A stretch of DNA of 35,765 bases, taken from positions 1 to 35,765 of the forward strand of contig CAMCXJ010000002.1 in the NCBI GenBank assembly GCA_945883455.1, read 5' to 3'. This document shows positions 11,525 to 15,376 of this stretch, in pieces. Made by a program: the position numbers and the translations under genes. The DNA is from Prosthecobacter debontii (GTDB lineage Bacteria; Verrucomicrobiota; Verrucomicrobiia; Verrucomicrobiales; Akkermansiaceae). The notes beneath the pieces are model-generated. The model searched no databases and was not told the origin of the DNA. It saw only the letters and a list, made by a program, of their open reading frames with translations. Positions within the stretch are counted from its first letter, which is position 1, and each line of letters begins with the position of its first letter.

Positions 11525-12202
11525 GTGCGCATCGACATCCTCACTCTTTTCCCCGAGATCGCGCTGGCACCCCTCAGCGACTCGATCATCCAGCGTGCGC
11601 GGGGCGCGGGGTTGGTTGATGTGCGCGGGCACAACCTGCGCGATTGGTCGGAGGATAAGCACCACCGCGTGGATGACTCGCCCTGCGGCGGCGGGCCGGG
11701 GATGGTCTTGCAGCCCGGGCCCTTACACGCCGCGATCACGGCGCTGAAAAAGCACGACACCCGCGTGATTTTGATGACACCGCAGGGCGCACCGCTGAAA
11801 CAGGCCCGCGTCCGCGAGCTTTCCGCCGAAACGCATCTCCTCATCGTCTGCGGCCATTACGAGGGCATCGACCACCGCATCGTCGAGACGCTCATCGACG
11901 AGGAAATCTCCATCGGTGATTACGTGCTGACCAACGGAGCCCTCGCCGCCGCCGTACTTTGCGATGCGGTTATTCGCCTCCTGCCCGGCGCGCTCGGCGA
12001 TTCGCAATCCGCTGTCGAGGAATCCTTCTCCGATCCCAATCTGTTAGAAGCGCCGTGCTACACGCGACCCATCGATTTCGTGGGCATGAAAGTCCCGGAG
12101 GTTTTGCTTTCCGGAAATCACGCGAAAATTGCGGTATGGCGAGGGGAAAAAGCGATCGAACGCACCCGCGAAAATCGACCGGATCTTGTAGAAAATACCT
12201 GA
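11525..12202 (+). CDS. trmD: tRNA (guanine-N1-)-methyltransferase
   Basis: IDILTLFPEIALAPLSDSIIQRA, DDSPCGGGPGMVL, IVCGHYEGIDHRI, SIGDYVLTNGALAA, YTRPIDFVGMKVPEVLLSGNHAKI; GTG start 5 nt after the SDR stop. Confidence 0.95.
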   Translation: MRIDILTLFPEIALAPLSDSIIQRARGAGLVDVRGHNLRDWSEDKHHRVDDSPCGGGPGMVLQPGPLHAAITALKKHDTRVILMTPQGAPLKQARVRELSAETHLLIVCGHYEGIDHRIVETLIDEEISIGDYVLTNGALAAAVLCDAVIRLLPGALGDSQSAVEESFSDPNLLEAPCYTRPIDFVGMKVPEVLLSGNHAKIAVWRGEKAIERTRENRPDLVENT

Positions 12203-12229
12203 CGTTGCCTGCCGCAAGCGATCTTGCGA

Positions 12230-12631
12230 TCACTCCGCCCAGTTCTCCAGTGTCAGCTCCGGAACGCGCTCAAACTCCGAGGTGTTGTTCGTAGCCAGCG
12301 GGAGGCTCAGTGCGAGAGCCTGCGCCGCGATCAGGCAGTCGAGTTCGCCGATCATCGTGCCGAGCGAACGCAGCTGTGCTTTAATTCGTCCGTAGTGTTC
12401 CGCCGCTTCGCCTGTGAAAGGCACGATCTCAAGCGGTGCGAGAAAGCGGAAAAGGGCGCTGCGGTTGCGCTCGATCTGGCTGCTTTTGGAAACACCGAAC
12501 TGGAGTTCCGCCAGCGTGATCGCCGTCACCCCGATCTCTCCCGGCTTGTATTGTCCGAACCGCTCGACCACACTCGCCGGACGGTGTTTCATCACGTAGA
12601 TGCAGATATTCGTATCGAGCAGGATCCTCAT
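12230..12631 (-). CDS. vapC: VapC-type PIN-domain toxin
   Basis: LLDTNICIYVMK, ITLAELQFGV, IGELDCLIAAQALAL, TNNTSEFERVPELTLENW. Confidence 0.9.
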   Translation of the reverse strand: MRILLDTNICIYVMKHRPASVVERFGQYKPGEIGVTAITLAELQFGVSKSSQIERNRSALFRFLAPLEIVPFTGEAAEHYGRIKAQLRSLGTMIGELDCLIAAQALALSLPLATNNTSEFERVPELTLENWAE

Positions 12632-12648
12632 GCTTCCATCCGAAAATA

Positions 12649-12921
12649 TCAGAGACCTTCCCGTTCCTTTTGCTCCCCCTGCTCACGATGCATCATGAAA
12701 TCAGGGGAAAAGTCCGCCGCCGCCTCAAAAAACGAATCCCAGCTATCCGTGATGGGACTGAGCACCACCGAATCGCCGATTTTCCGGATCGAAACGGCCG
12801 TCCCTTCAAACCGAAATTGCTTCGGCAGCCGCACCGCCTGGCTCTGTCCGTTTTTAAAAAGCTTCGCTTGCACACCGAAAGTAGATACTTTTAAGTGTAT
12901 CCTGTCAATCTTTGGTTTCAT
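12649..12921 (-). CDS. vapB: VapB-type antitoxin
   Basis: QAKLFKNGQSQAVRLPKQFRFEG (SpoVT/AbrB-like); ends 17 nt before vapC. Exact start uncertain. Confidence 0.85.
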   Translation of the reverse strand: MKPKIDRIHLKVSTFGVQAKLFKNGQSQAVRLPKQFRFEGTAVSIRKIGDSVVLSPITDSWDSFFEAAADFSPDFMMHREQGEQKEREGL

Positions 12922-12976
12922 ATTTGGATTGTCACGCAATGGGCAGTAAACTGCCAAAACCTGACCGCCACACGAA

Positions 12977-13192
12977 ATGAAACCCACCCTTCTCCTCCTT
13001 ATTCTCGCCGCAACCTCCCACGCGAAGACCTTGAAAATCGTGGCCGGCCCGTACGACCGCGCCAACACGGTCGTGACCGTTCCCGCGCCCGATGATGTGC
13101 CGGAAAACCCCGGCCTCAAATCGGCGGACGGGAAAATCCTTCCGCTTCAGCTTTCGGACAAAGGCACGGCGACCTCAGGGCGATCAAACTAG
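12977..13192 (+). pseudogene. Truncated secreted-protein gene (N-terminus resembles DUF6807/PmoA-family proteins), interrupted by the MITE-like element
   Basis: MKPTLLLLILAATSHAKTLKIVAGPYDRANTVVTVPAPDDVPENPGLKSADGKILPLQLSDKGTAT, then the frame enters the inserted element and stops. Confidence 0.6.
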
Positions 13193-13441
13193 GGAAAAGC
13201 CAAGCCCGTTTTCCCGTTAACCCGAAAACCGAAAAGGGAAATTTAACCACGGATGTCACGGAGGGGCACGGATGAAGAAAGAGTTATGGAAACATTTTCA
13301 AACCTGTACGGTTTATCCTTAAATCCGTGAAAATCCGGTGCCACCTGTCCGTCGTAGCCTTGGCGAACTTCTCTTCCTTGGCGGTTCAAAAATCTTCATT
13401 CCCGATTATGCCACGACTTCTCCCTAGCTTGGTCGCCCTGA
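13175..13441. mobile_element. 267-bp MITE-like non-autonomous element
   Basis: 27-bp terminal inverted repeats matching at 23/27 positions (13175-13201 and 13415-13441), flanked by an exact 8-bp direct repeat CGGCGACC (13167-13174 and 13442-13449). No transposase ORF. Confidence 0.8.
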
Positions 13442-13501
13442 CGGCGACCTTCATTTTGCCAGATTGACTTGCTCCCTGTTCCCTGCTTCAAAAGCCGCCC
13501 C

Positions 13502-15376
13502 ATGTCCGACCGCAAGACCCTCGACGAACGAGCCCAGATGACCGATCTCGAGCGCGTGCGCCACTCCGCCGCGCACGTAATGGCCACCGCCATCCTCCGC
13601 ATCTGGCCCGACGCGCAGTTCGCCTACGGCCCGCCCATCGAGAGCGGTTTCTACTACGAGTTCCGCATGGAGCACCGCATCACGCCGGATGACTTCGAAA
13701 AAATCGAGGCAGAGATGAAAAAAATCGCGAAGGAAAATCAGAAGTTCGACTACAAGGCGATCTCCCGCGAGGAAGCGAAGGCGATGGCCGAGTCCGGACG
13801 CCTCGGCGGCCTGACCGAGCGCCCGGGAAACCCTTCTCTCTTCAAGCTCGACCTCATCGACAAGATCCCGGAAGGCGAGCAGATCTCCTGTTTCCAGAAC
13901 GGCGATTTCATCGATCTCTGCGCCGGCCCGCACGTCGGCTACACCTCGAAGTGCAAGAACGTGAAACTCATGTCGGTCTCGTCGTCTTTCTACTTGGGCG
14001 ATGAATCGAAGGGCCAGCTCCAGCGGCTTTACGGCACGGCCTTCGAGAGCAAGGAGGAGCTGGAAAGCCACCTCGTCCGCCTTGAGGAGGCGAAAAAACG
14101 CGACCACCGCCGCCTCGGCCGCGAGCTGGGGCTTTTCCACATCGATGAAATGGTCGGCCAAGGCCTTGTCCTCTGGAAACCGAAGGGCGCCCTCGTCCGC
14201 CGCGCGCTCCAGGAATTCATCACCGCCGAGCTCGACAAGCAGGGCTACTCGCAGGTCTTCACCCCGCACATCGGCAAGCTCGACCTCTACCGCACCTCCG
14301 GCCATTTCCCCTACTACCAGGAAAGCCAATACCCCGCCATCGCCGAGCGCGACGTGTTGGAGAAACTCGCCGACGAGGACGCGACCTGCGCCACCCTCAT
14401 CAACGGCCTCTCGGACGGAACCTACGAAGGTTACCTGCTCAAGCCGATGAACTGCCCGCACCACATCAAGATTTTCGCGAGCGACCACCACTCCTACCGC
14501 GACCTGCCGGTGCGGCTTGCCGAGTTCGGCACCGTCTATCGCTGGGAACAATCCGGCGAACTCGGCGGCATGACCCGCGTCCGCGGTTTCACCCAGGACG
14601 ACGCCCACCTTTTCTGCACCCCCGACCAGGTGGCGCAGGAAGTGAAAGGCTGCCTCGACCTCGTGAAAAAGGTGCTCACCACCCTCGGCATGAACGATTA
14701 CCGAGTCCGCCTGTCCCTCCGCGATCCGGAGAGCGACAAATACGTTGGCTCATCCGAAAACTGGGACAAGGCCGAGGCCGCCCTCCGCGAGGCCGTGATC
14801 CATCTCGGCGTCGATTACACCGAGGAGCTCGGCGAGGCCGCGTTCTACGGGCCGAAGATCGACTTCGTCGTGAAAGACGTGATCGGCCGCGACTGGCAGC
14901 TCGGCACCGTGCAGGTGGATTACAACCTGCCCGTCCGCTTCAAGCTCTCTTACGTCGGCGAGGACAACAAGCCGCACATTCCCGTCATGATCCACCGCGC
15001 ACCCTTCGGATCTTTGGAAAGGTTCACCGGCCTGCTTATCGAGCATTTCGAAGGGAAATTCCCGACCTGGCTCGCCCCGGAACAGGTGCGCGTCCTCCCC
15101 ATTTCCGAGAAATCCCTCGAAGCCGCCGAGGAACTCGCCGCCAAGCTCGCTGATCTCGGTGTCCGCGTCTCCGTGGATCGCACTTCCGAAAAAGTCGGCG
15201 CGAAAATCCGCAACGCCCGCATGGAACGCGTCCCCAACATGGCGATCCTCGGTGCGAAGGAAGTGGAAGAAGGCACCGTCTCCGTCCGCATCCGCGGTGA
15301 AGAGCAGCCCATCACGAAAACCGTCCAGCAGTTCATCGACGATCTGCTAAAGGAAATCACTGAGCGCTCGCTCTAG
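13502..15376 (+). CDS. thrS: Threonine-tRNA ligase, lacking the N-terminal TGS domain
   Basis: HSAAHVMATAILRIWPDAQFAYGPPIESGFYYEF, MNCPHHIKIF, MTRVRGFTQDDAHLFCTPDQ, EAAFYGPKIDF, MIHRAPFGSLERF. Confidence 0.95.
   Translation: MSDRKTLDERAQMTDLERVRHSAAHVMATAILRIWPDAQFAYGPPIESGFYYEFRMEHRITPDDFEKIEAEMKKIAKENQKFDYKAISREEAKAMAESGRLGGLTERPGNPSLFKLDLIDKIPEGEQISCFQNGDFIDLCAGPHVGYTSKCKNVKLMSVSSSFYLGDESKGQLQRLYGTAFESKEELESHLVRLEEAKKRDHRRLGRELGLFHIDEMVGQGLVLWKPKGALVRRALQEFITAELDKQGYSQVFTPHIGKLDLYRTSGHFPYYQESQYPAIAERDVLEKLADEDATCATLINGLSDGTYEGYLLKPMNCPHHIKIFASDHHSYRDLPVRLAEFGTVYRWEQSGELGGMTRVRGFTQDDAHLFCTPDQVAQEVKGCLDLVKKVLTTLGMNDYRVRLSLRDPESDKYVGSSENWDKAEAALREAVIHLGVDYTEELGEAAFYGPKIDFVVKDVIGRDWQLGTVQVDYNLPVRFKLSYVGEDNKPHIPVMIHRAPFGSLERFTGLLIEHFEGKFPTWLAPEQVRVLPISEKSLEAAEELAAKLADLGVRVSVDRTSEKVGAKIRNARMERVPNMAILGAKEVEEGTVSVRIRGEEQPITKTVQQFIDDLLKEITERSL

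Follow-up and report, generated by a model that had tools for sequence, protein, structure and literature searches.

MITEPye1 of Paracoccus yeei is a bacterial MITE that has been attributed to IS1182 (PMC11578231), and the TIMEs are inverted-repeat miniature elements derived from Tn3 (PMC4133298). We analysed a window of 35,765 nucleotides from Prosthecobacter debontii (the whole stretch of DNA under study) in which a short element of comparable build interrupts a gene relic just upstream of thrS. In a literature search of incomplete coverage, we found no MITE family linked to ISAs1 in Verrucomicrobiota. Insertion sequences of the ISAs1 family usually duplicate 8-10 bp of their target (ISfinder).

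We argue here that positions 13176-13440 are very probably a MITE that carries the ends of an ISAs1-family IS of Akkermansiaceae and related Verrucomicrobiota and that was inserted, with a duplication of 10 bp, in a DUF6807 gene. A preliminary description had already read the element as a MITE, and this reading was borne out by the ends, the duplication, the empty sites, the dispersed copies and a full-length IS with the same ends. Its measurements of the element and its list of candidate drivers had to be revised.

Boundaries of the element

Both end sequences lie exactly where the preliminary description had placed them, and over the 27 bp that it compared they differ at four positions, all transitions. 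A degenerate 27-mer for both ends has two matches in the window; with up to three mismatches allowed, shuffles lead one to expect none. The borders are different from those first proposed. The direct repeat CGGCGACC found at both flanks, which had been taken as a target duplication of 8 bp, forms the central part of an exact repeat that is 10 bp long, ACGGCGACCT, at 13166-13175 and 13441-13450. Once this repeat is set as its border, the element extends from 13176 to 13440 and measures 265 bp instead of 267 bp, the outermost bases formerly assigned to it belonging to the duplication. The terminal inverted repeat proper is likewise shorter than the 27-bp match: the repeat common to the family has 20 bp (CASGGCGATCAAGCYAGGGA), and 82 ends, all from copies whose duplication can be recognised, give CA(G/C)GGCGATCAAGC(T/C)AGGGA, also 20 bp. 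The base next outside CAGGG is random across these copies (T at 24 ends, C at 23, G at 21, A at 14) and therefore belongs to the target, not to the element. The 265 bp contain no ORF of transposase size, as had been reported, and the element is short in the way of MITEs. The features of the locus are the following.

12977-13175, forward strand: 5' part of a DUF6807 gene, of which about 66 codons are left ahead of the element that interrupts it; 81% amino acid identity to the intact protein of G004 (residues 1-67 of 389), which carries PF14100
13166-13175, no strand: left copy of the target duplication, ACGGCGACCT; exact match to 13441-13450, present once at the empty site of G004 and with one mismatch in G082
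13176-13440, no strand: non-autonomous MITE, very probably of ISAs1 type, 265 bp, with a mosaic interior and without a transposase ORF
13176-13195, forward strand: left terminal inverted repeat, CAGGGCGATCAAACTAGGGA; family consensus CASGGCGATCAAGCYAGGGA
13219-13367, forward strand: interior module 1; an independent dispersed repeat of about 190 bp (AACCCGAAAACCGAAA...AACCACGGATGNCACGGA...ATCCGTG), here in a truncated copy and elsewhere also found without ISAs1 ends
13358-13440, forward strand: interior module 2 and right end; the 83 bp are 97.6% identical to G008:C54:13354-13436, at another locus and in a second species
13421-13440, reverse strand: right terminal inverted repeat, CAGGGCGACCAAGCTAGGGA, of the family type
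13441-13450, no strand: right copy of the target duplication, ACGGCGACCT
13451-13463, forward strand: final 13 bp of the gene relic, to the truncation point; continues in frame with the intact gene of G004, which has TTCATCCTGCCGGA at this point
13464-13491, forward strand: promoter-like block of thrS, TTGACT-N17-TTCAA, outside the element; conserved upstream of thrS

We read the element as non-autonomous, bounded by inverted repeats and brought by transposition into a gene that survives only as a relic.

A family of copies defined by its ends

Copies were sought by pattern searches in which few mismatches were allowed, and their counts are lower bounds. We collected 62 elements with both ends from the genome of the window, its relatives and public contigs. 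The genome itself has a second complete copy (C14) and further single ends (C173, C83), the copies having different flanks as the preliminary description had anticipated. The ends are present in 18 of 59 relatives, nearly all of the same genus, and a reversed control pattern had no matches in the 59. Among the matches listed from a large genome collection (at least 80 loci), exact ends occur only in records labelled as Verrucomicrobiota, the labels being Akkermansiaceae, Rubritalea, Roseibacillus, Prosthecobacter and unnamed MAGs.

To obtain the length of the duplication, the left and right flanks of the 62 paired copies were compared for each assumed length from 5 to 14. At a length of 10 the repeat is exact in 22 of the 62 and agrees at 8 or more of the 10 positions in 37, with a mean flank identity of 0.73; at no other length does any of the 62 show an exact repeat, and mean identity is then about 0.25-0.31. 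Multiple copies, terminal repeats, duplications and empty sites, by which a MITE is recognised, were all found. The preliminary description had counted a single-copy sequence against its own reading: the full 265 bp do occur only once in the genome of the window, while the ends recur at multiple sites. The MITE family is defined by its ends and not by its interior.

Three loci of the family have arrangements of their own. In L238 (CAMAQB010000010.1, 6802-7313), two nearly identical MITE copies of 251 bp stand in direct tandem exactly 10 bp apart (CAAATACTTT); the pair as a whole is flanked by one duplication of 10 bp, GACAGGTTGG, and has the appearance of a dimer transposed as one unit. At L066 (G033:C64:21100-22600), a MITE insertion has grown into a tandem array: three MITE right ends follow each other at a spacing of 336 bp, the units are identical at 333 of 336 positions, and the same target sequence stands after each right end. 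The MITE interiors of L014 (G000:C14) and L044 (G005:C20) are 92% identical and their decayed target repeats are similar (GCATTGAC/GCATTGAT in the former, GCATTGAC/GAATTGAT in the latter), apparently the traces of one old insertion common to two species.

Mosaic interiors

What we least expected in this analysis is how many interiors go with one pair of ends: at least 18 distinct ones occur among the copies that have a good duplication. Thirteen of the 18 hold an inner palindrome that none of 40 shuffles matched in strength, and in about eight the arms consist of near-repeats, for example AACCRCRGAT... or AACC(RCRGAT)x3. Compared with shuffles, the window copy has no inner palindrome of this type beyond chance, and in the window a search for arms of this kind matched only low-complexity sequence. 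Hairpin repeats at many loci (e.g., L009, L004, L015, L246) carry in each arm about three near-repeats of a short unit after ACC; the units (ACGGAT, GCAGAT, GCGAAT, GCCAAG, ACAGAG, ACAAAA) vary between elements and are roughly constant within one. A literature search for the hairpin-arm strings found nothing relevant.

The interior of the window copy consists of two modules. The repeat of which module 1 is a part occurs without ISAs1 ends at three places in the same genome (C172, C203, C48) and also in G067 and G080. Modules 1 and 2 overlap in CCTTGGCGAA at the fusion point, and the presence of this sequence in both suggests that they may have been joined there by microhomology. The dispersed repeat of about 190 bp (AACCCGAA...TTCGGGTT; window 13219-13367, L302-L331) has inverted arms of CACGGAT near-repeats, which in some copies are expanded to seven or so units. 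At L100 (1062-1437; G008:C54) there are tandem units of 147 bp containing a CCTTGGCGAACTTC...TTGGCGGTTC module, the last of which terminates in a MITE right end.

The order of events admits a variant of our explanation, to which we give somewhat less than an even chance: another ISAs1 MITE may have inserted first, its interior being replaced later by the dispersed repeat via recombination. It would agree with the occurrence of module 2 and the right end elsewhere with a different left side (G008:C54), with module 1 being a truncated copy of an independent repeat, and with the full inner palindrome that most other interiors form and the window copy does not; however, the earlier form that it presumes did not turn up at the site in the window, and the fusion could equally have preceded the insertion. 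A broader idea, which we regard as tentative and on balance rather unlikely, is that the ISAs1 ends of this lineage act as a general carrier, the transposase mobilising short hairpin repeats that lack one of their own and thereby yielding mosaics like the window copy.

The insertion site and the region upstream of thrS

The preliminary description had placed the element in a gene relic whose frame, once rejoined, reads ...LSDKGTAT|FILPD before a stop. The frame is correct, and the empty sites it called for exist in G004 and G082, where trmD is followed by an intact DUF6807 gene (PF14100; 389 aa in G004) that continues uninterrupted through the target. These homologues have ...LSDDGTATFILPELAAG... 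at this spot, where the target occurs once, exact in G004 and one base off in G082. The stop, on the other hand, is not original to the gene: the relic is truncated at 13463/13464, its 3' part is lost, and homology to the DNA upstream of thrS of other species begins at 13464. In the related G008, the corresponding place between vapC and thrS holds no more of the DUF6807 gene than a 3' remnant with two stop codons. Since the window keeps a 5' remnant and G008 a 3' remnant, the gene was lost in different ways in two related genomes. Between trmD and the relic, the window also carries a PIN-domain (VapC-like) gene on the reverse strand (12230-12631), with a probable antitoxin partner just upstream of it.

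The promoter-like block begins 24 bp past the element. Its TTGAC...TTCAA pattern is found in 11 of 30 thrS upstream regions, including those of the window and of its six nearest relatives; the block at 13464-13491 was not called by a consensus scan. As the block starts at 13464 and is common to the nearest relatives, it was left whole by both the element and the rearrangement. We infer that it is the thrS promoter, and the element probably has no effect on thrS.

The element ends 61 bp upstream of the thrS start, its single strand folds better than shuffles (z -2.8) and it contains weak terminator-like stems, all of which would also suit a structural or regulatory intergenic repeat of thrS (a terminator, a riboswitch or a REP-like sequence) instead of a transposon. 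We consider this very improbable, given that the element is absent upstream of thrS in the compared relatives, the nearest of which keep the common block from 13464, that Rfam gave no match at E up to 1 in 12000-15000, and that there are a target duplication and an empty site.

ISAs1-family insertion sequences with the same ends

The full-length IS with the same ends that the preliminary description had proposed to look for was found in G032 (C16). It is complete, measures about 1.27 kb, has the ends CACGGCGATCAAGCTAGGGAGA and the target duplication TGGATCAGGC, and its transposase of 388 aa matches NF033564 (NCBIfam, ISAs1 family transposase) with an E of 5e-105. Two further IS have these ends: L220, a contig of 1261 bp from Roseibacillus persicicus KCTC 12988 that is in its entirety an IS with the family ends, and L236, from a MAG, with no visible duplication at the element ends. 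The 20-bp ends of the MITE match those of all three elements. PF13808 and PF01609 were found in the three transposases, which are 52-68% identical to one another and all terminate in LSLA-stop, encoded by the terminal repeat itself (TCC CTA GCT TGA). Partial or decayed relatives with the same end are present at G035:C242 and G032:C22.

Going by the shared ends, the driver of the MITE is the ISAs1 family, and the duplication of 10 bp falls inside the range usual for it. ISAs1 was absent from the candidates (IS1595, IS66, ISL3, IS256) among which the preliminary description had left the driver unnamed; that one of these 8-bp families drove the MITE is extremely improbable. In favour of it, an 8-bp repeat appears if the base beside each end is counted as element; against it, the family duplication is 10 bp, and the transposase encoded between the same ends in the complete IS is of the ISAs1 family.

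A miniature of 212 bp in G023 has kept some 100 bp from either end of the IS, at 81% and 75% identity, and at least one family member is thus an internal-deletion derivative. The window copy has no sequence in common with the IS beyond the 20-22-bp ends. No intact ISAs1 transposase with the family ends was found in the genome of the window, the assembly of which is 66% complete; C50 of this genome has one partial PF13808 match, without family ends. Further ISAs1 elements occur in the genus (G010, G074, G030); their ends follow the pattern CAGGGCTAMCTCATTTTGA or one close to it, and the G010 transposase is only about 41-44% identical. Given these different ends and this low identity, they are not the direct partner.

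We thus favour a scenario in which a cognate ISAs1-type DDE transposase, supplied in trans, would bind both 20-bp ends and move the element into the DUF6807 gene between trmD-vapBC and thrS. Joining to a target cut with a 10-bp stagger would leave ACGGCGACCT on either side. The interior would be a chimera in which the separate repeat was fused, at the shared CCTTGGCGAA, to the right part of a different copy. The DUF6807 gene would have decayed afterwards, or have been decaying already, with the loss here of its 3' part.

Comparison with known systems

The driver, the exact duplication length and the precise end sequence can now be given for a MITE family that extends across Akkermansiaceae and their neighbours. 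The family can be annotated and its insertions compared. An easy error is also corrected, in which random target bases beside the ends are counted as element and a duplication of 10 bp is misread as one of 8 bp. The varied interiors on one pair of ends constitute a natural data set on the acquisition of cargo by MITEs.

Like MITEPye1, the window element is short, has no transposase gene, carries IS-like ends between direct repeats and is presumably mobilised in trans; it differs in the family of its driver, and within its own family the same ends enclose at least 18 different interiors. With the TIMEs it shares being non-autonomous, keeping the ends of an IS or transposon and joining in mosaics. 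The ends of TIMEs are those of Tn3, whereas those of the window element are of ISAs1; Tn3 ends give a duplication of 5 bp. The ISAs1-family IS (NF033564; PF13808 and PF01609) of related genomes have, as complete elements, the same 20-bp ends and the same 10-bp duplication, from which the window element departs in its size of 265 bp, its lack of a transposase and its unrelated interior.
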